Below are positions 69-21,783 of a DNA stretch of 21,783 bases, one piece after another. The DNA is taken from IMG/VR virus record IMGVR_UViG_3300032093_000960, positions 1 through 21,783 of that record; one strand, 5' to 3'. Below the pieces are notes generated by a model that was given only the letters and a program-made list of their open reading frames with translations, ran no database searches and had not been told where the DNA came from. Position numbers and translations under genes: made by a program. This DNA comes from a virus. The stretch's first letter is position 1, and each line of letters begins with the position of its first letter.

Positions 69-460
69 TGGCAAGAGGCCCATTAGCAGGAGCATCAGGC
101 CCTGGTAAATTCTCCAAGAGAACAGATTTACCTTCAGCATATTACGGTGAAGGTGTAGAAACAGCAGCAATTAAATCACAAATGCCATTGTCAACGACAG
201 CCGGTGAAGCAGATGATAGAGGCGGTAGGCCAAGAACTGCGCTTCCTCCAGTAACTCCATTATTTGCACCATCACAACGCCCAGAAGAACCTATTACTAC
301 AGGTGTAAAACCTGGTGATGGTGGTGGCGATGAAGTATTAATGATGAACCAAATGCAACAACAGCAATCTTTATCACAAACATTAGCTCAAATGCTTCCG
401 TACGATACTAATGGAGAAATTGCTGCCCTATACGAGCAGGCTTTATCTAGAGGACTTTAA
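68..460 (+). CDS. Small disordered Pro/Gly-rich phage protein
   Basis: This 130-aa protein starts at an ATG with a near-perfect ribosome site (AAAGGAGG, five-base spacer) overlapping the upstream stop. The N-terminal two thirds are rich in Gly, Pro, Ser and Thr (MARGPLAGASGPGKFSKRTD and a PPVTPLFAPSQRPEEP stretch) and look unstructured. Residues about 92-130 are Gln/Met/Leu-rich and probably helical (MMNQMQQQQSLSQTLAQML). There is no signal peptide or membrane segment. The position between the presumed head-vertex gene and the giant virion protein suggests a minor virion or assembly factor. I do not recognise a characterised family, so the function is unknown. Confidence 0.8.
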   Translation: MARGPLAGASGPGKFSKRTDLPSAYYGEGVETAAIKSQMPLSTTAGEADDRGGRPRTALPPVTPLFAPSQRPEEPITTGVKPGDGGGDEVLMMNQMQQQQSLSQTLAQMLPYDTNGEIAALYEQALSRGL

Positions 461-3400
461 TGGCTCAGAATGTAAATAAAGGTAATCTTTATCAAGCAGT
501 AGAGCGTGCTGGTTTGAACCCAGCGCAAAAAGAACAGATTAATTCTTTTTCTGATATGTATTCAAAGCATACATCTTTAACTAATTTACCAGATGCTATT
601 GCTGCTATTGAATATAATCAATTAACTGCAGAGCAACAAAAGAGTATGGCTGAGTTCTTTGGTGCTGATGAAACCAAACCAGGACAAGGCGTTGTAATGA
701 AGGCAGCCTCTTGGTTAGTTAAACCAATTGTTGAGCCAGTAAAAGAAGTTTTAAAAGCAGCTAGTTGGGCATCTGATCAAGTTACTAGAGCGTATCGCAC
801 AGGTCGTATTGCAATAGGTGAGCAAACAGATTTAGCTTCAGCATTTCGTAGATCTGGTGCTAATGGTGAGCAGGTATATGATGAGAGTCGTATATCAAAA
901 GCAGTTGCTACTTATGGTCAAAATAGAGTTTATGTAGCACAACAGATTTCAGCAGGTATTCCATTAGATCAAATTATTGCTAATGCTCAGAATCCTGAAC
1001 AAAAGCGTATTGCTGCCGAGGCTTCAAAGCCTGATGGAGATCCTTTACTTGATGAAGCAGTAGCAAAAGTTAATGCTGCTAAGTATTCATTTGGTAGAGA
1101 TGTAGCTAATTTTTTCTTACCAAAAGATCTTGAAGGTAAGAGCGGTCTTTATACTTGGATCTCAGGTACTGGTGATGCAGCTTTCCGTATATTCCTAGAC
1201 CCTACTATTGTTCTAGGTAAAGTAGCAAAAGCATATAATGCTGGCAAGTTTGCATTAACTAAAACTATTGGATCTGCAGCAAAAGTTGATAATGCTTTCC
1301 AATATGACAGCGTTAGTAGATTCTGGACTGAGTATACTAAAGGTCTAGATGACTTAGTTAAGGCTCGTGCTTCTGAAAAAGCAATTGAGGTCGGTGAGGC
1401 GACTACTCGCCTACGTAGACTTAATCCAGCCCTTGGTGCTAATGGTGTAGATGATGCACTTATTAAGTTTGCTAAAGATGATATGGATGGCGTATTAGAT
1501 GTAAATACTGCTAAGGCTTTCCTATCAAATGTTGAACGTATTGAACCATTGTTCTACGGTCAAGCAGGATTACAAATTAAGGTTATGCCTAGACTAAGCG
1601 CTTTCCGCAAGAAGCGTGTAGATCTATACACTAAAGGTACAAGAGCATTTAGTCTTAATGATGACTCAACAGACTTTTTACGCAATATAGTATTTGATGA
1701 AGCTGATGCTCGTGGTATCTCTACTCAAGAAGCAGCATTACAATCTCTTATTGGTCGTGGTGATGAAACAGTAGCAGAGGCTGCTGAAAGAACTGCTTTA
1801 AGGATTAAGGCAGAAGAAGCCAAGAGAGTAAATAAATTCTCTGTCTATTCTATAAACAAGCGTATAGATAACTTTTCTCGTAAGTTTAATTTAATTCCAG
1901 ATATGGATGAACTAGGTAACCACACATCTCCTAGAGCACATATTGCTTTTGAGCGTTATGCTCGCCTTGTATATGGTAAGTACTCATCTAGAATATTGGG
2001 TGATGTCTATCAACAGTCTAACCTTGGTCAACGCCGTCAAATGTTTAATGGACTACAATCTGTAGTTGGTGAATTACGAGGTCTTAAAGGAACTCAAGGT
2101 GGTCGTAAACTACTAGAGACTATTGGTACTGTAGGCAGAGATGCTGTTTATACCAACAGAGCATTTGATGATGCTAATCCACAGGGCTTCTTTCCATCAG
2201 TTGTAAATGGTTCAGACTCCGCTTTGTATCCATATCAAATTAATGAACGTCAAGCATTTATCACACCACAGCAATTAGATCGTTTTGCTGCAAGAGATGG
2301 ATTTATATCTAATGCTTGGGGATTACAGTACACAAAAGCAGCAGATGATGCTATTAGCACATTCGTTACTGGTACTTTAGCAGGTCCTAGATTCCCAGTT
2401 CGTAACGCTATTGAGGATTATTTATTCTATCTTGCAAATGGTAGAGGTATTATTAGATCAGGCGTTCAGGTAGCAAAGGGTCGTAGACTAGCTACAGATG
2501 TTCGTACTGCTACTAAAGATTTAAATCTAGGTTTAGTAAATCGTTATACAAAAGCAAAAGATAAGAATCAGATCGTATCTAAACTTAATGATATTGATAA
2601 AGGCGTTAAAAAAGATATTGGCAAAGATGGTCAAGAGATAGTATTTGCTGACTTTTATACTACAAAGGCTGAAAAGTTAGAAGCCAAGCGTAAAGTATTA
2701 GCAGAGGTATTATTAAGAGATAAATTTAATGATGCCCAAATTGGTAAGTTTGGTAAAGACTTTGATCGCTATACCTATGAGTTCACTATGTATGGTGATT
2801 ATGAGAACCTACTTCGCTCTGCAAGCGAGGGTGCTTATAACTTAAACGCTGGTAGCGATATTGTTTCTAGAGCAAAACGTATCAGTCGTAAGCACGGTAA
2901 AGTAGTTGACTTTAGTATTGATGGTGAAGATTATGCTCGTCAATTTGGATCCTTTGGTGAGTTTAGCCCATTAGATCAAGAGGGTAAGTTAGCTTGGGCA
3001 TTTCAAATTATGACCAAGGCTCAAGATGAGTTTGCTTCAGAGGGTATGAAGTTACTTAAAGTTCACGGTAATAATCGTGGTGCTTTCGTAAAGGCTATGT
3101 CAGAGCATATTGATAAGCCACAGTTTGCATCCTTAAAGCCTAAGTTTGATCGGTATGTAGATACTAATTACACATCAACTCAACAGGCTTCTGCCATCTA
3201 TGATGATCTAAGAACCTTGTTTGGTAAAGCAGATAATTCTATTAATACAAACCTACTTAATAGAGTGGTCAAGGTTGGCGATAATGGTCAACTAAAAGTT
3301 GATACTGATGACTTTAGTATTGAGTTCTTACCTACTAAGTACACAGATATTCCCAAGGCAATTGTTGGTCCTAAATTACTACCAGCACAGCAGTCACAAA

Positions 3401-5229
3401 ATATTATCTCTGATCTAAATACTAGATTATGGGACTTCTTAGGTGATGCTAATGCTCGTTTATCTAGAGATCAGATTGTTATAGATGCAGCATTTAATAT
3501 TCGTAAAGAGTTACAACCCTACCTAGATGACCTTGCTAAAAAGGTTGGTCCACAGGTAGCTACAAAACAGGTTGTAGAGTTATCAGAGAAGTTAGCAGTA
3601 GAGCGGGTATTAGCATTTGTTGATAACCCTACTGTTAGAACTCAGATGGCTTGGTCTATGCGTAACTTTGCTCGTTTCTATAGAGCTACTGAGGATGCTT
3701 ATCGCCGTCTATATAGAACAGTTAAGTACAACCCAGAGTCTATTCGTAAGATAGCACTTACCTATGAAGGTGTAGCACATACTGGATTTGTACAAAGAGA
3801 TGATCAAGGCGAGCCTTACTTTATCTATCCTGGTGTAGCACCGGTATATGAAGCAATGAATAAAGTTCTAGGTGTATTTGGATTAGGCGATAAATTCGTT
3901 GCTCCAATGCCATTACAATTTGGTTCAGATATTAGAATGTTAACACCATCTGCTAACCCTGAATCTTGGTTACCTACATTTAGTGGTCCTTTAGCTGGTC
4001 TATCACTGAAGACTATTTACAGTATTGCTGGTCTATTTGAAGAATCTAATATTGATGCACTATCAACTATTGGTCAGGAAATAAAGTCTACTGAAAGAAT
4101 AACCTTAGGTGAGATTGGTGAGAATCAATCATTCTTCCAAGCAATATTACCAGGTCACGTTAATAGGCTTATTACATCTCTTAGTAGAGATGAAAGAGAT
4201 TCCCAGTACGCATCTGCTTTCCGCAAGGCAGTAACTTATCTAGAGGCTGGTGGACATACACCTTCTTCAGATGCAACACCTGGTGAGTTAGCACAGTACC
4301 AAAAGAGATTAAGATCTACAATTACTGGTGTGTTAGCAACTCGTTTCGTATTAGGCTTTATAAGTCCTGCATCACCAACTACAACTCTAAAGTCAGATAT
4401 GGCTGAATGGGTTAGAGATAATGGTCGGGTTAACTTTAAGCAAGTCTATACAAAACTTATTGAGGAATACACCGCTAAGAATAGTCCAGATCCAATAGGT
4501 GAGGCTATGGCTGATTGGGTTAAACTATTCCCAGATGAAGTTCCTTACGTTATTAACGAATCAGAGCCTGAGTTCCAGGCAAGATTTAAGACTAGCAACG
4601 CAGCAGCAAACTGGGTTGATGAGAACAAGGATCTAGTAGCCAAGTATCCAGAGGGTGCTGGCTTCTTAATTCCTCAAAGTGGAACCTTCTCTTGGGATGC
4701 TTACCAATTCCTAAAAGATAATGGCTTCCGTAAGACTAAGCTAGTAGATGACTTCTTAAAAGAGTCTTTTGTTTCTAAAGATAAATACTTCTACTACACA
4801 CAGCGTGATAAGTATGAAGCGGCACTAGAGAACGCTGGTTCAGATTCAGAGCGTAAGAGAATTAACAACGCTTGGAGAGTATGGTCTGGTGACTTCAAGA
4901 GTGCAAGACCTTTATTGCAGGAAGAGTTTGCTAATTCAGCCTCTAATAATATTAAACGTCAAGCCTCTTATGGGGATCTAAAGCGTTTACTAAATGAGTC
5001 TGGTATTAATAATCCAGCAACTAAGGCTTTGCGTAGTATGGTAAATATCTATGAAGAGTATCTATTTACTAAAGATAATGTTTATAACTCTAGATCTGAA
5101 AGAGATGTTAGATCCAGAGAGTTTATTAGAGAGTCAACTCTTGAGCAATTGAAAGATATTGCTAGAACAAACCCAAATGCAAAGGGTGCATTTGAAGTAT
5201 TATTTAGTAACTTCCTAAGAGAGGATTAA
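460..5229 (+). CDS. Giant internal/ejection-type virion protein candidate (1589 aa)
   Basis: This is by far the largest gene of the window. It overlaps the preceding stop (TAATG) and has GAGGA five bases before the ATG. The protein is mostly charged, alanine-rich and probably alpha-helical throughout, with no signal peptide and no recognisable lysozyme, protease or polymerase motif. Its middle carries many Arg/Lys-rich segments. Around residues 1140-1200 it becomes more hydrophobic and Pro/Gly/Leu-rich (VFGLGDKFVAPMPLQFG, TFSGPLAGLSLKTIYSIAG), and near 1290-1310 there is another apolar stretch (ITGVLATRFVLGFISPASP); these may be membrane-interacting. Size, helicity and position just upstream of scaffold and capsid resemble the large internal or DNA-ejection proteins of podoviruses. 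That role is inferred from context, not from homology. A tape-measure role is less likely because no tail-tube genes accompany it. Confidence 0.9.
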   Translation: MAQNVNKGNLYQAVERAGLNPAQKEQINSFSDMYSKHTSLTNLPDAIAAIEYNQLTAEQQKSMAEFFGADETKPGQGVVMKAASWLVKPIVEPVKEVLKAASWASDQVTRAYRTGRIAIGEQTDLASAFRRSGANGEQVYDESRISKAVATYGQNRVYVAQQISAGIPLDQIIANAQNPEQKRIAAEASKPDGDPLLDEAVAKVNAAKYSFGRDVANFFLPKDLEGKSGLYTWISGTGDAAFRIFLDPTIVLGKVAKAYNAGKFALTKTIGSAAKVDNAFQYDSVSRFWTEYTKGLDDLVKARASEKAIEVGEATTRLRRLNPALGANGVDDALIKFAKDDMDGVLDVNTAKAFLSNVERIEPLFYGQAGLQIKVMPRLSAFRKKRVDLYTKGTRAFSLNDDSTDFLRNIVFDEADARGISTQEAALQSLIGRGDETVAEAAERTALRIKAEEAKRVNKFSVYSINKRIDNFSRKFNLIPDMDELGNHTSPRAHIAFERYARLVYGKYSSRILGDVYQQSNLGQRRQMFNGLQSVVGELRGLKGTQGGRKLLETIGTVGRDAVYTNRAFDDANPQGFFPSVVNGSDSALYPYQINERQAFITPQQLDRFAARDGFISNAWGLQYTKAADDAISTFVTGTLAGPRFPVRNAIEDYLFYLANGRGIIRSGVQVAKGRRLATDVRTATKDLNLGLVNRYTKAKDKNQIVSKLNDIDKGVKKDIGKDGQEIVFADFYTTKAEKLEAKRKVLAEVLLRDKFNDAQIGKFGKDFDRYTYEFTMYGDYENLLRSASEGAYNLNAGSDIVSRAKRISRKHGKVVDFSIDGEDYARQFGSFGEFSPLDQEGKLAWAFQIMTKAQDEFASEGMKLLKVHGNNRGAFVKAMSEHIDKPQFASLKPKFDRYVDTNYTSTQQASAIYDDLRTLFGKADNSINTNLLNRVVKVGDNGQLKVDTDDFSIEFLPTKYTDIPKAIVGPKLLPAQQSQNIISDLNTRLWDFLGDANARLSRDQIVIDAAFNIRKELQPYLDDLAKKVGPQVATKQVVELSEKLAVERVLAFVDNPTVRTQMAWSMRNFARFYRATEDAYRRLYRTVKYNPESIRKIALTYEGVAHTGFVQRDDQGEPYFIYPGVAPVYEAMNKVLGVFGLGDKFVAPMPLQFGSDIRMLTPSANPESWLPTFSGPLAGLSLKTIYSIAGLFEESNIDALSTIGQEIKSTERITLGEIGENQSFFQAILPGHVNRLITSLSRDERDSQYASAFRKAVTYLEAGGHTPSSDATPGELAQYQKRLRSTITGVLATRFVLGFISPASPTTTLKSDMAEWVRDNGRVNFKQVYTKLIEEYTAKNSPDPIGEAMADWVKLFPDEVPYVINESEPEFQARFKTSNAAANWVDENKDLVAKYPEGAGFLIPQSGTFSWDAYQFLKDNGFRKTKLVDDFLKESFVSKDKYFYYTQRDKYEAALENAGSDSERKRINNAWRVWSGDFKSARPLLQEEFANSASNNIKRQASYGDLKRLLNESGINNPATKALRSMVNIYEEYLFTKDNVYNSRSERDVRSREFIRESTLEQLKDIARTNPNAKGAFEVLFSNFLRED

Positions 5230-9835: not shown

Positions 9836-9949
9836 ATGAAATCAATGAAAATGAACTCTTACAAGGCTCTTGAAAAAGGTGCTAAGGGTAAGAAGGCTAA
9901 GAAGTCTGACAAGAAAATGGTTATGAAGAAGATGGGCAAGAAGAAGTAA
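9836..9949 (+). CDS. Lysine-rich mini-protein (37 aa)
   Basis: The ATG lies two bases after the preceding stop, and AAGGGG lies seven bases upstream. The product is extraordinarily basic: about 17 of 37 residues are Lys, with runs such as KGAKGKKAKKSDKK and a KKMGKKK end. Its stop overlaps the next start (TAATG), which supports a real, coupled gene. Such a peptide would bind nucleic acid or an acidic protein surface. No family is recognised. Confidence 0.6.
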   Translation: MKSMKMNSYKALEKGAKGKKAKKSDKKMVMKKMGKKK

Positions 9950-10032
9950 TGTGCGCCACTTGCGGTTGCGGATATGCAACATACGATGATATTGAAACCG
10001 GCGCTCCTGGTAAAGAAGCACCTCAGCAATGA
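9949..10032 (+). CDS. Cysteine-cluster microprotein (27 aa)
   Basis: It overlaps both neighbours by one and four bases (TAATG, ATGA). The product begins MCATCGCGYATYDD, with Cys at residues 2, 5 and 7 (CxxCxC), followed by an acidic and Gly/Pro-rich tail. The cluster could hold a metal ion, or form a disulphide with a partner. It is acidic while its neighbours are strongly basic. Being placed exactly between two overlapping frames is the main evidence that it is translated. Confidence 0.5.
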   Translation: MCATCGCGYATYDDIETGAPGKEAPQQ

Positions 10033-10190
10033 AGAAAACTAAAGGCGCTAAGAAAGTCGCCAAGGTTATGAGAGAGTTTAAAAAGGGCGAACTTAATATT
10101 GGCAAGTCTGCCAAGAAGGTTAAGTCTAAGAAGCAAGCAGTTGCTATCGCTCTATCAGAAGCAGGAATGTCTAAGAAGAAAAAGAAGTAA
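10029..10190 (+). CDS. Basic DUF6496-like small protein (53 aa)
   Basis: It starts in an ATGA overlap with the preceding microgene and ends in a TAATG overlap with the next. The core, VMREFKKGELNIGKSAKKVK followed by KKQAVAIALSEAG, matches the pattern I remember for DUF6496, a small family common in phage and bacterial genomes. The C-terminus is five consecutive lysines. Its function is unknown; high charge suggests nucleic-acid contact. The family assignment is from memory and moderately sure. Confidence 0.7.
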   Translation: MKKTKGAKKVAKVMREFKKGELNIGKSAKKVKSKKQAVAIALSEAGMSKKKKK

Positions 10191-11048: not shown

Positions 11049-12841
<1,793 letters not shown>

Positions 12842-12842
<1 letters not shown>

Positions 12843-13900
12843 TGAAGGTAGCTGTATATACGATTGCTCTTAATGAAGAGAAGCACGTTCAGCGTTGGTA
12901 TGACTCTGCTAAAGATGCAGATTACTTACTGATAGCAGATACTGGTTCTACAGATAAGACAGTAGAACTTGCTAAGTCTTTAGGTATTAATGTTATTAAT
13001 ATCAAGATAGATCCTTGGCGCTTTGATGATGCTAGAAACGCAGCATTGGCTGCCCTACCACCTGAGATAGATTACTGCATAACACTAGATATGGATGAAG
13101 TTCTAGTAGGTGACTGGAAGAAGGATTTACCAGAGGCTTTAAAGTTTAATATTACTAGACCAATACATAACTTTGTTTATGGTTGGAATGATGATGGAAC
13201 ACCATCTGTATCTTTTGATGGAACTAAGGTTCACGCCCGTAGAGGTTATCGTTGGAGATTTCCAATACACGAGGCAGTATGTGCCTATAAGATTCCTGAG
13301 ACTAAAGCTAAGGTAGATCTAACGATCCACCATTTTCCAGATGATTCTAAGTCTAGAGAGCATTACCTAGATATATTAGAGATGGCTGTTGAGGAAACTC
13401 CAGGCGATTCTCGGATGCTTTACTACCTTGGTAGAGAGTATTGCTACCGTAAAAGATTTTATGATGGACTACAAACTTTAAAGAAGTATTTAGAGTTCTC
13501 AATATTTCCAGCAGAGCGTTCATATGCACTACGCATTATGGCTAAGTGTGATCCTGATAATGCTGAAGAGCATTTACAGAAATCTATTAATGAGTATGTG
13601 TGTAGAGAATCAGTCTTAGCACTGGCTAACTATTACTACCAACATACTAGGTGGGAAGAGTGTTTTAGAACTGCAACTAGAGCATTAACTATCACTGAAA
13701 AGAAAACAGATTTCCTATCTGAAGGTTGGGCTTGGGGCCATATGGCAGATGACTTATGTGCCATATCAGCTTGGCAATTAGGTGAATGGAAAGTAGCAGT
13801 AGAGCACGGCAAGAAAGCAGTTGATTTAAGTCCAAATGATGAAAGATTGCAAAACAATTTAAAGTTCTACAGAGAGAAGGCTAATGAGCACACTAAATGA
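12842..13900 (+). CDS. GT2-type glycosyltransferase with C-terminal TPR-like repeats
   Basis: This 352-aa protein starts in a TAATG overlap. The GT-A fold is clear: VAVYTIALNEEKHVQRW at residues 3-19, LIADTGSTDKT at 30-40, DDARNAALA at 62-70, and the metal-binding DxD in ITLDMDEV at 80-87. RWRFPIHEAV is a further block seen in such enzymes. From about residue 195 it turns into paired helices typical of TPRs (LYYLGREYCYRKRFYDGLQT and EWKVAVEHGKKAVDLSPNDE). Similar GT2-TPR proteins glycosylate peptides or build cell-surface glycans. It follows the GT25 gene directly, so it may extend the first sugar. It overlaps the next structural gene by 17 bases, which ties the glycosylation pair to virion expression. 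The substrate is inferred. Confidence 0.88.
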
Positions 13901-20296: not shown

Positions 20297-20500
20297 ATGA
20301 CTCCTAATGAATGGGCAGGACTTGCCGTAGCAGTAACGACACTTATTGGAACACTAGCGTTAACAGTAAGACACTTAGTTAAATACTATTTGTCTGAACT
20401 TAAACCGAATGGTGGATCAAGTGTCAAGGACCAGGTCAACCGTTTAGAGGAGAAGGTTCAATTCTTAACAGATCTAGTAAAGGAGTCACTAACAAGATGA
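20297..20500 (+). CDS. Membrane-anchored coiled-coil protein of the lysis cassette (67 aa)
   Basis: One membrane helix spans residues about 5-28 (EWAGLAVAVTTLIGTLALTV). A basic turn (RHLVKYY) and a coiled coil (VKDQVNRLEEKVQFLTDLVK) follow. This TM plus Leu-heptad plan is that of the small holin-like or DUF2746-like proteins beside actinophage endolysins. It overlaps the endolysin start by four bases. A holin accessory or anti-holin is the most likely role. Confidence 0.75.
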   Translation: MTPNEWAGLAVAVTTLIGTLALTVRHLVKYYLSELKPNGGSSVKDQVNRLEEKVQFLTDLVKESLTR

Positions 20501-20952
20501 GCGTAGTAGAGATAGCAAAGGCTGAGATAGGCAACAGAGAGACCGGCAATAATGATAACAAGTATGGCAAGTGGTATGGTGCTAACAACCAACCTTGGTG
20601 TGCGATGTTTGTATCTTGGGTATTTAACAAAGCGAATTTAGGTAATAAGATTACAGCACAAGGAGAGAAAGGCTTTGCCTCCTGTGATGCTGGACTGAAG
20701 TGGTTTATCAATAAGAATAAGATGATTCCAATAGGTCAAGCGCAAGCTGGAGATATTGTTTTCTTCCAGTTTGATAAAGATGCAGAGCCTGACCACGTTG
20801 GAATTGTCAAATGGAATAACACTAGGTTGAAGTATCTTCAAGTAATTGAGGGTAATACAAGCAGTGGTTCCAAAGGCAGTCAATCAAACGGGGATGGTGT
20901 GTATCTTAGGAAACGACCATACTCTCTAGTAATGGGTGTAGTTCGCCCGTAA
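20497..20952 (+). CDS. CHAP-domain endolysin
   Basis: This 151-aa cysteine peptidase/amidase hydrolyses peptidoglycan at the end of infection. The catalytic Cys is C35 in PWCAMFVSWVF, the His is H100 in EPDHVGIV after the typical AGDIVFF strand, and E118/N120 in VIEGNTS complete the site. Residues 1-30 form the helical lead-in found in CHAP domains. It consists of the catalytic domain only; no cell-wall binding repeat follows, unlike many modular lysins. Its start overlaps the membrane protein gene, and a holin follows, making a complete lysis cassette. CHAP versus NlpC/P60 is decided by the PWCAMFVSW context. Confidence 0.92.
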   Translation: MSVVEIAKAEIGNRETGNNDNKYGKWYGANNQPWCAMFVSWVFNKANLGNKITAQGEKGFASCDAGLKWFINKNKMIPIGQAQAGDIVFFQFDKDAEPDHVGIVKWNNTRLKYLQVIEGNTSSGSKGSQSNGDGVYLRKRPYSLVMGVVRP

Positions 20953-20960
20953 GGATGGAT

Positions 20961-21173
20961 ATGAATAAACTAATTGACAAGTTAAAAGACCCAAAGACTA
21001 AGGCTGCATTTAAGTCTTATCTACGGGCAGTATTAGCATCAGCAGTAACTATGGGTCTTGCACTTGCTGCAGATCTTGCACCAGAGTATGCAATCTTGAT
21101 TGGTTCAATCGCTGGTCCACTGGCTAAGTGGGCAGATAAGACTGAAAAAGAGTACGGCGTAGGAGCCGAGTAA
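20961..21173 (+). CDS. Two-helix holin
   Basis: An ATG at 20955 is also in frame, but AAGGA at 20951-20955 has proper spacing only to the ATG at 20961, which gives 70 aa. A basic amphipathic N-terminus (LIDKLKDPKTKAAFKSYL) precedes two membrane helices, about RAVLASAVTMGLALAADLA and YAILIGSIAGPLAKWA, joined by a short PE turn. The charged tail is DKTEKEYG. This is the plan of class II-type holins that time lysis by making membrane holes. It is the last gene before the strong terminator. Confidence 0.85.
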   Translation: MNKLIDKLKDPKTKAAFKSYLRAVLASAVTMGLALAADLAPEYAILIGSIAGPLAKWADKTEKEYGVGAE

Positions 21174-21196: not shown

Positions 21197-21229
21197 AAGG
21201 GGGGCGCTTAACTGCGCCCCTCTTTTTTT
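21197..21229 (+). terminator. Strong rho-independent terminator after the lysis genes
   Basis: GGGGCGC (21201-21207) pairs perfectly with GCGCCCC (21214-21220) around a six-base loop; the stem can be extended by four more pairs, one of them G-U. A T-run (TCTTTTTTT) follows at once. It ends the structural and lysis transcript. Read from the other strand, the same hairpin lies right after the minus-strand zinc-ribbon gene but lacks a good T-run there. Confidence 0.92.
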
Positions 21230-21234
21230 ATGCC

Positions 21235-21471
21235 CTAAATTTCCCTAGCGGGATCATCTACCGGACAAGGCACGATTATTAAATTACCACAGTTAGCACA
21301 AGTAGCATCTAACATATACCAGGAGATCTCAAAGTTATCAAAGGTAGCTAGGATAGAGAATACTTTAGAGCCACAAGGACAAGCGTGTAGTGGTCCTAAG
21401 GACCTAAGGTCCGTACCGAATTTATCTGGTAGTTTCTCTTTATTTTTTCGCAGGGTTGGTAGACGGAACAT
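21235..21471 (-). CDS. Small zinc-ribbon protein on the minus strand (78 aa)
   Basis: This is the only convincing complete minus-strand gene. The first 25 residues are basic. A zinc ribbon follows: C31-P-C33-G at HACPCGSKVFS and C58-A-N-C61-G at DATCANCGNLIIVP, separated by strands (FSILATFDNFEISWYMLD). It ends with a PVDDPAR tail. The same plan, Cys-x-Cys-Gly then Cys-x-x-Cys-Gly and a Pro-Val-Asp tail, is familiar in short actinophage proteins of unknown role. AGGAAGGAG lies 14 bases before the ATG, which is long; a CTG at 21477 would have five-base spacing. It converges on the lysis terminator. Probably a regulatory or nucleic-acid-binding early protein, by inference. Confidence 0.75.
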   Translation of the reverse strand: MFRLPTLRKNKEKLPDKFGTDLRSLGPLHACPCGSKVFSILATFDNFEISWYMLDATCANCGNLIIVPCPVDDPAREI

Positions 21472-21684
21472 ATTGCTCAGGTCGGCTCCTTCCTGTGGTC
21501 AGTCGCCTCGGCGCTTTCAGCGCCGCCTTGGTTGGTTACCGTATCTGTAATTCGCCTTTGGCTCATATGGTACACATTTCCGATCTAGTAATCCGAAAGG
21601 ATCGCACTCACGGCGTGTTGCCTTTACATCCCAGTATTTTTTACGGGCGGTGCTACAATTAATCCAAGATAAAAGGAGTATGCA
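21472..21684. promoter_or_regulatory. GC-richer gap between the minus-strand gene and the proteasome-like gene
   Basis: This 213-base region is richer in GC than the rest of the window. It has a perfect hairpin (CGGCGC at 21509-21514, GCGCCG at 21520-21525, five-base loop). An open minus-strand frame (21517-21708) covers most of it and ends in the loop of this hairpin. I see no tRNA. At its right end lies a promoter for the next plus-strand gene. Confidence 0.5.
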
Positions 21685-21708
21685 GTGACGGCAATAGTTG
21701 GTATTCAA
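21517..21708 (-). CDS. Possible short basic protein (63 aa), doubtful
   Basis: The frame reads like coding sequence in its last 40 codons (KYWDVKATRRECDPFGLLDR, then YEPKANYRYGNQPRRR) and is followed 46 bases later by the minus-strand zinc-ribbon gene, with a ribosome site for that gene in between. Against it, its only ATG lies in the first 24 bases of the plus-strand proteasome-like gene and opposite that gene's promoter and ribosome site. It could be a decayed remnant of an older gene. Basic C-terminus and two Cys near the start (CRHC) hint at nucleic-acid binding. Confidence 0.3.
   Translation of the reverse strand: MNTNYCRHCILLLSWINCSTARKKYWDVKATRRECDPFGLLDRKCVPYEPKANYRYGNQPRRR
21651..21659 (+). 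promoter_or_regulatory. Extended -10 promoter for the proteasome-like gene
   Basis: TGCTACAAT is a full extended -10 element (TGnTAnnnT). No good -35 hexamer lies at the right distance, as is allowed for extended -10 promoters. It is 26 bases before the GTG start and AAGGAG (21673-21678) lies between them. It would restart transcription after the lysis terminator. Confidence 0.6.
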
Positions 21709-21783
21709 GGTAAGGGTTGGGCAGTTATTGCTGCTGACTCTATGACTACCTATACAGATAGACCTTACGTTGCTAAGGGCTAC
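21685..21783 (+). CDS. Proteasome beta-type N-terminal-nucleophile hydrolase (5' part, cut by window)
   Basis: The GTG start has AAGGAG six bases upstream; an ATG at 21680 runs into a stop at once. After the initiator the chain reads TAIVGIQGKGWAVIAADSMT. With Thr as residue 1, Asp falls at 17, the spacing of catalytic Thr1 and Asp17 in proteasome beta subunits and HslV. Lys33 would be the first or second residue beyond the edge. There is no propeptide, so Thr1 is exposed by simple removal of Met, as in HslV and BPH-type bacterial homologues and unlike actinobacterial PrcB. The AADSMTT context looks closest to the BPH/HslV group. A phage use could be virion-protein processing or degrading host proteins; both are inference. 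Confidence 0.8.
   Translation, partial: MTAIVGIQGKGWAVIAADSMTTYTDRPYVAKGY

Follow-up and report, generated by a model that had tools for sequence, protein, structure and literature searches.

The window, a stretch of 21,783 bases classed as linear, is an entire IMG/VR record, and the reading frame at its right end cannot be extended within it. This frame opens with a GTG start codon at 21685-21687 and runs without a stop to the contig end, encoding 33 residues (MTAIVGIQGKGWAVIAADSMTTYTDRPYVAKGY). Features of the window are the following:

9836 to 10190, plus strand: capsid slot, the place 3' of the capsid gene and a pair of small genes in which related phages carry the hydrolase; here small ORFs only, two of them Lys-rich
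11386 to 12243: collagen-like repeat protein, before a glycosyltransferase pair
20497 to 20952, plus strand: CHAP/NlpC-P60 endolysin of the upstream late operon (Pfam CHAP, E 4.2e-10; PHROG 21357 endolysin, E 2.5e-67)
20955 to 21173, plus strand: gene for a 72-residue protein that closes the late operon (PHROG 37724, function unknown)
21197 to 21231, plus strand: intrinsic terminator of the late/lysis operon, stem at 21197-21224 with 11 pairs, 8 of them G-C, and a T-rich tail
21235 to 21471, minus strand: 78-residue ORF between the late and early regions, containing two Cys pairs
21651 to 21659, plus strand: extended -10 promoter element TGCTACAAT, conserved in early-slot upstream sequences
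21673 to 21678, plus strand: Shine-Dalgarno-like AAGGAG, 6 nt 5' of the GTG, in a purine-rich stretch kept in relatives
21685 to 21783, plus strand: first 33 codons of a 189-residue proteasome-like threonine hydrolase (sequence, completed by contigs L007 and L097; PHROG 1040)

Relatives of the gene were collected through a degenerate AVIAADSMT search of viral contigs and through relatives of the neighbouring CHAP endolysin. Two contigs match the right end of the window and run on past it, L007 with 99.71% identity over 6,555 bp and L097 with 98.77% identity over 3,427 bp, and a third, L058 (contig 3300008114_001115), is 100% identical to its last 479 bases. The contigs that are 98.6-100% identical to the right end give a complete hydrolase of 189 residues. 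The L058 copy has a deletion and a frameshift after residue ~148, reflecting either a broken gene or an assembly error. In total, 221 loci among those examined carry the gene, and dN/dS within the 189-residue clade is 0.04-0.19, mostly 0.04-0.10. The hydrolase gene is real and under strong purifying selection.

The initial annotation had read the 33 residues as the start of a propeptide-less proteasome-type hydrolase, with Thr1 and Asp17 spaced as in proteasome beta subunits, and had expected Lys33 and a full Ntn fold of about 170-240 residues beyond the contig end. The Thr1-Asp17 spacing is borne out in the window itself. The continuation carries no stop, and the lysine is present as Lys34, displaced by one extra hairpin residue, its codon lying just past the contig end. 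In E. coli HslV the catalytic Lys is found one residue earlier (+33). In the alignment with Bacillus anthracis HslV (3ty6), Lys34 is paired gap-free with a Lys that is likewise at +34. None of 42 diverse relatives, down to 30% identity to the first sequence, departs from Thr1, Asp17, Lys34 or Gly47. Counted from Met1, the residues invariant in this set are M1, T2, D18, K35, G48, W60, P63, F74 and P81, together with G136, G138, A142 and G144. Variation occurs at the secondary catalytic positions: S137 is kept in 34 of the 42, and the region equivalent to D166/S169 is variable.

Profile searches place the protein in the proteasome superfamily. It scores 32.5 bits against Pfam PF00227 (Proteasome; curated cut-off 22.4), which is matched by 38 of the 42 relatives at E <= 0.001. 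PHROG 1040, the 'peptidase HslV family', matches it at E 9.2e-26 and matches all 42 members, with E values down to 1e-30. A profile search of PDB sequences finds HslV at E 6e-12 and the beta-proteobacterial proteasome homolog BPH at E 8e-11 over nearly the whole length, and no unrelated family matches better. The AlphaFold model (pLDDT 90.8, pTM 0.88) is a confident proteasome (alpha-beta-beta-alpha) fold, whose closest solved folds are BPH (E 2.6e-10, TM 0.73-0.77), then HslV and 20S beta. The closest predicted viral structures are phage proteins, one of them named HslV. Both helices, at residues 50-58 and 71-89, are present in the model, and the loop between H2 and the next strand is extended and acidic, with a median of 14 residues and a net charge of about -2. 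The equivalog cut-offs of NCBIfam are not reached for HslV (27.1 bits vs 137 and 26.3 vs 157.75) or for archaeal 20S beta (28.7 vs 224). No companion alpha subunit was detected, each phage giving one match only to the clade's profile. These results support a phage-borne Ntn hydrolase of proteasome type that has no propeptide, and the protein is probably a group-I proteasome homolog of HslV/BPH-like character. Its catalytic residues and modelled fold make it very probably an active threonine hydrolase.

This kind of protein is already known from phages, as PHROG 1040 and as the homologs PPH and AAH, described by Fuchs, Alva and Lupas (2021) from phages and hosts (PMC8665760). According to the same work, homologs normally have no propeptide unless they are 20S beta or HslV. 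Because phage homologs are known and propeptide absence is usual among them, neither point is surprising here. Several clades are mixed in PHROG 1040; that of the freshwater actinophages is distinguished by invariant residues and genome slots of its own. The window's protein resembles AAH and PPH in its group-I character, its carriage by a phage, the lack of a propeptide and of an AAA+ partner, and a compact fold without helix H5. However, PPH has about 140 residues and no helix H2, whereas the window's hydrolase has 189 residues with H2 present in the predicted model. Plasmid and phage homologs with an AAH-like host range, presumed to be AAH, form a clade (100/100) apart from the window's family, and actinobacteria-specific phages with AAH were not found by the authors (PMC8665760). 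When phage and plasmid homologs from elsewhere are included in the tree, 17 of the 19 freshwater sequences fall into one supported clade (95/94). The presumed AAH clade (100/100) consists of the rhizobial, Streptomyces and Bacillus plasmid homologs together with phages such as E3 and MTATph1.

Among the solved structures, BPH (PDB 5ovs/5ovu) is the closest analogue by fold and gives a full-length profile match. It shares the extended acidic pore loop and the lack of a known unfoldase with the window's protein, although identity is about 18% and the hydrolase is phage-borne. BPH has a long acidic pore loop and apparently no unfoldase, whereas HslV has a short linker at this place (PMC5777263). 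HslV shares Thr1/Asp17/Lys33/Gly47, a GSGG motif and a C-terminal match with the hydrolase, which differs in lacking HslU, in its extended acidic loop and in scoring far below the equivalog cut-off. Two homologs from phages of freshwater actinobacteria, the HslV-named protein of Actinomycetia phage DSL-LC01 (WJZ48484.1) and that of Planktophila phage LanE43AprF5 (F5; OX376641), are 35-39% identical and have the same catalytic residues. DSL-LC01 is a 129-kb phage in which the homolog adjoins whiB, and the F5 homolog follows the portal gene.

Phage F5, isolated on Ca. Planktophila LanE-43 (PMC10202952), shares TerL, portal, scaffold-like and capsid genes with the window's phage group and carries a 178-residue hydrolase homolog. 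By this kinship, the putative hosts of the window's phage are freshwater actinobacteria. Nine host-type genomes of Nanopelagicales, picked by a 16S signature, contain no match to PF00227. HslU was not found above cut-off in any of 22 records (16 from phages and 6 of the nine host-type genomes). A scan of genome contigs with the 189-residue protein gave no cellular relatives. In 296 Nanopelagicales and 396 Actinomycetota genomes searched with profiles, the matches were weak throughout, and those that were inspected proved to be 20S beta/HslV-like or remote homologs. Because the cellular matches are only weak, the gene was not recently captured from the host group. The main texts of four freshwater-actinophage papers (PMC10202952, PMC6802176, PMC10611076, PMC10914622) do not mention a phage proteasome or HslV.

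Methionine aminopeptidase removes Met1 when position 2 is Thr. The host enzyme would thus expose Thr1, and the catalytic centre would consist of Thr1, Asp17 and Lys34 with Gly47 at the oxyanion hole; the residues and fold are in place, and the chemistry is presumed from them. Subunits would most likely assemble into a closed homo-oligomeric double ring. The extended acidic loop at the pore may control entry as in BPH, and cleavage would be independent of ATP, requiring neither HslU nor another dedicated ATPase; absence of a dedicated unfoldase is likewise a likely feature. Model substrates were not cleaved by BPH (PMC5777263), which shows that general proteolysis need not come with a proteasome fold and makes a narrow substrate range likely for the phage hydrolase. 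The protein may be pictured as an accessory protease of the infection phase that would act in trans on host or phage polypeptides.

The hydrolase could have a host AAA+ protein such as ClpX as its partner, and it may be an HslV-like ATP-dependent peptidase working with ClpX or another host unfoldase. HslV is among the best profile matches, and the host-type genomes encode a ClpX-like ATPase of 431-446 residues that weakly matches the HslU profile; ClpP paralogues are present in the two hosts checked. However, HslU occurs in neither the phages nor the hosts examined, the HslV equivalog scores stay far under the cut-off (27 vs 137 bits), and the extended acidic pore loop departs from the short HslV linker (PMC5777263). 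This explanation is rather unlikely. The phages contain no ClpP, and ClpP was also considered as a replacement for the hydrolase in gene-less phages, where none was found.

The hydrolase gene is single-copy in every phage record with a match and occupies one of three slots: 66 loci have it immediately 3' of the portal gene, 91 in the capsid slot, and 46, the window's clade among them, have it in an early slot that separates lysis cassette and early operon. It lies directly 3' of the portal gene in 72 of the 85 portal-bearing loci that could be scored, including that of F5. In most of the 91 capsid-slot loci the hydrolase has a Lys-rich C-terminal tail. These Lys/Ala-rich tails (L002:7813-8538, L030:1873-2508 and others) are about 20-55 residues long, and many of them begin with an internal Met, which would fit fusion to a small basic gene such as those at 9836-10190 of the window. 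The tree requires five changes of slot label in total; for the early slot, two or more changes are forced by branches with good support. Because the hydrolase of genome G710, 84% identical to the window's protein, occupies the portal slot, the move in the window's lineage is recent.

These positions bear on a second alternative, in which the hydrolase is a capsid-maturation or virion-morphogenesis protease that cuts scaffold, capsid or ejected proteins during head assembly. The position directly after the portal gene, the predominant one in portal-bearing loci, is the classical place of prohead proteases. A second set of loci has the gene in the capsid slot, and in one actinobacterial genome (L200) a MuF-like head gene has a Thr-type homolog nearby. 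However, five near-complete records of the same phage group (34.6-40.2 kb) are without the hydrolase: neither the clade's profile nor PHROG 1040 at E <= 1 matches them. Portal loci lacking the hydrolase show no recognisable substitute protease, the next gene being a small unrelated or shared ORF. The five records may not be complete, so that any single absence is provisional, but it is unlikely that all five lack the gene by chance. In the window's clade, moreover, the gene precedes the early operon, and remoter phage homologs adjoin thymidylate synthase, DHFR, deaminase or reductase genes. A prohead maturation protease is thus not what this distribution suggests, and a virion-related role is improbable. 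The scaffold, one of the targets proposed initially, is disfavoured by the near-complete relatives, which lack the gene and have nothing recognisable in its place.

In our reading the hydrolase is accessory and works inside the cell, accessory because five near-complete records of the same group do without it, and in trans because a single copy occurs in three genomic slots. As a whole, the reading as an accessory, unfoldase-free, BPH-like threonine protease of the infected cell is the one we favour as probable. Its substrates would most likely be those of cell takeover, and we assign a takeover or counter-host role only tentatively; recycling of unfolded protein is a rather doubtful function.

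Genomes G418, G712, G713, G714 and G716 were rejected as evidence of dispensability because only the lysin and a few early genes are common to them and the window. At six portal loci without the hydrolase (L350, L361, L366, L389, L405 and L407), an acidic ORF of 73-86 residues directly follows the portal gene, and in L350 this is the ORF that otherwise follows the hydrolase. The remoter phage and plasmid homologs at L177, L178, L180, L182 and L424 adjoin genes for thymidylate synthase, DHFR, ribonucleotide reductase or dCMP deaminase.

The protein may alternatively be a specific Ntn hydrolase or ligase, monomeric and connectase-like, and not serve degradation. Connectase, which is a monomeric ligase, belongs to the proteasome-like family (PMC8665760), and the invariance of W60, P63, F74 and P81 in the phage clade is unexplained. 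However, the predicted model lacks a connectase-type insertion between strands 3 and 4, and the nearest folds are ring-forming proteases, which makes this explanation quite improbable. A catalytically dead passenger or contig-end artefact, suggested by the mere 33 codons in the window and the frameshift in the near-identical L058, is refuted as an artefact by the 221 loci, the invariant catalytic residues and a dN/dS of about 0.05-0.1, and is very improbable overall.

The initial annotation had also placed a strong terminator between the lysis operon and the hydrolase, and had given the gene a promoter and an expression phase of its own. The terminator is confirmed by its stem of 11 pairs and T-rich tail, and is terminator-like on the minus strand too. 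The promoter claim holds for the early-slot clade, where all 15 distinct upstream sequences that were aligned, the window included, retain TG[CT]TA; it does not extend to most relatives, which carry the gene in the late block. There is no -35 element at normal spacing to TGCTACAAT, and the bare extended -10 pattern is not commoner than chance (3 found vs 6.2 expected), so that its count is uninformative. Within window positions 21560-21660, 5' of the -10 element, early-slot relatives show strong conservation of CTAGTAA, ACGGCGTGT and ACATCCCA, with ACGGCGTGT occurring in nearly all of them, or CGGCGTGT in all. These strings are possibly an operator or a phage-specific promoter element.

The hydrolase opens an early block that encodes a Cas4/RecB-like nuclease, a gp49-like protein, WhiB (Pfam E 2.1e-12), a DnaB-like helicase, a Toprim protein, a sigma-like factor and a methylase. 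WhiB is a marker of actinophages. Because the gene is the first of this early/replication operon in the window's clade, the hydrolase should be made early; the separate phase proposed initially is read from gene order. An early takeover role fits the family as a whole poorly, because most relatives carry the gene in the late block. The 78-residue ORF on the minus strand (21235-21471) is a candidate for a conserved regulator where late and early regions meet, and a reverse-strand Cys-pair ORF that looks similar by eye lies 3' of the lysis genes in L030 (13091-13366, minus strand).

To our knowledge, phage proteasome homologs are known from sequence only. No genomic context pointing to a function of the phage homologs was reported by Fuchs et al. 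(PMC8665760). New here are the freshwater actinophage clade, its three slots, the natural gene-less relatives and the hosts without proteasome or HslUV. At somewhat less than even chance, we would go further and regard the clade as an undescribed actinophage-specific subfamily, unfoldase-free and brought into streamlined freshwater actinobacteria without proteasome or HslUV, whose gene has moved repeatedly between late structural and early positions, changing its timing. The clade is large and under selection in phages of one of the most abundant groups of freshwater bacteria. A cultured phage-host pair is at hand (F5/E7 on Ca. Planktophila LanE-43, F5 being a confirmed carrier), and gene-less relatives exist in nature beside carriers. 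Because the hosts have neither proteasome nor HslUV, the effect of the phage protein would be free of host background. The shifting gene position separates what is needed for the virion from what acts in the cell.

Two further regions of the window were observed. Two adjacent glycosyltransferase genes (PHROG 2835 and PHROG 13126) occupy 12258-13900, between the collagen-like repeat protein and the tail genes. A protein of 1589 residues with no clear family match is encoded at 460-5229; a giant ORF is found shortly after the portal gene in the relatives inspected, and the window's protein may be an ejected virion protein.
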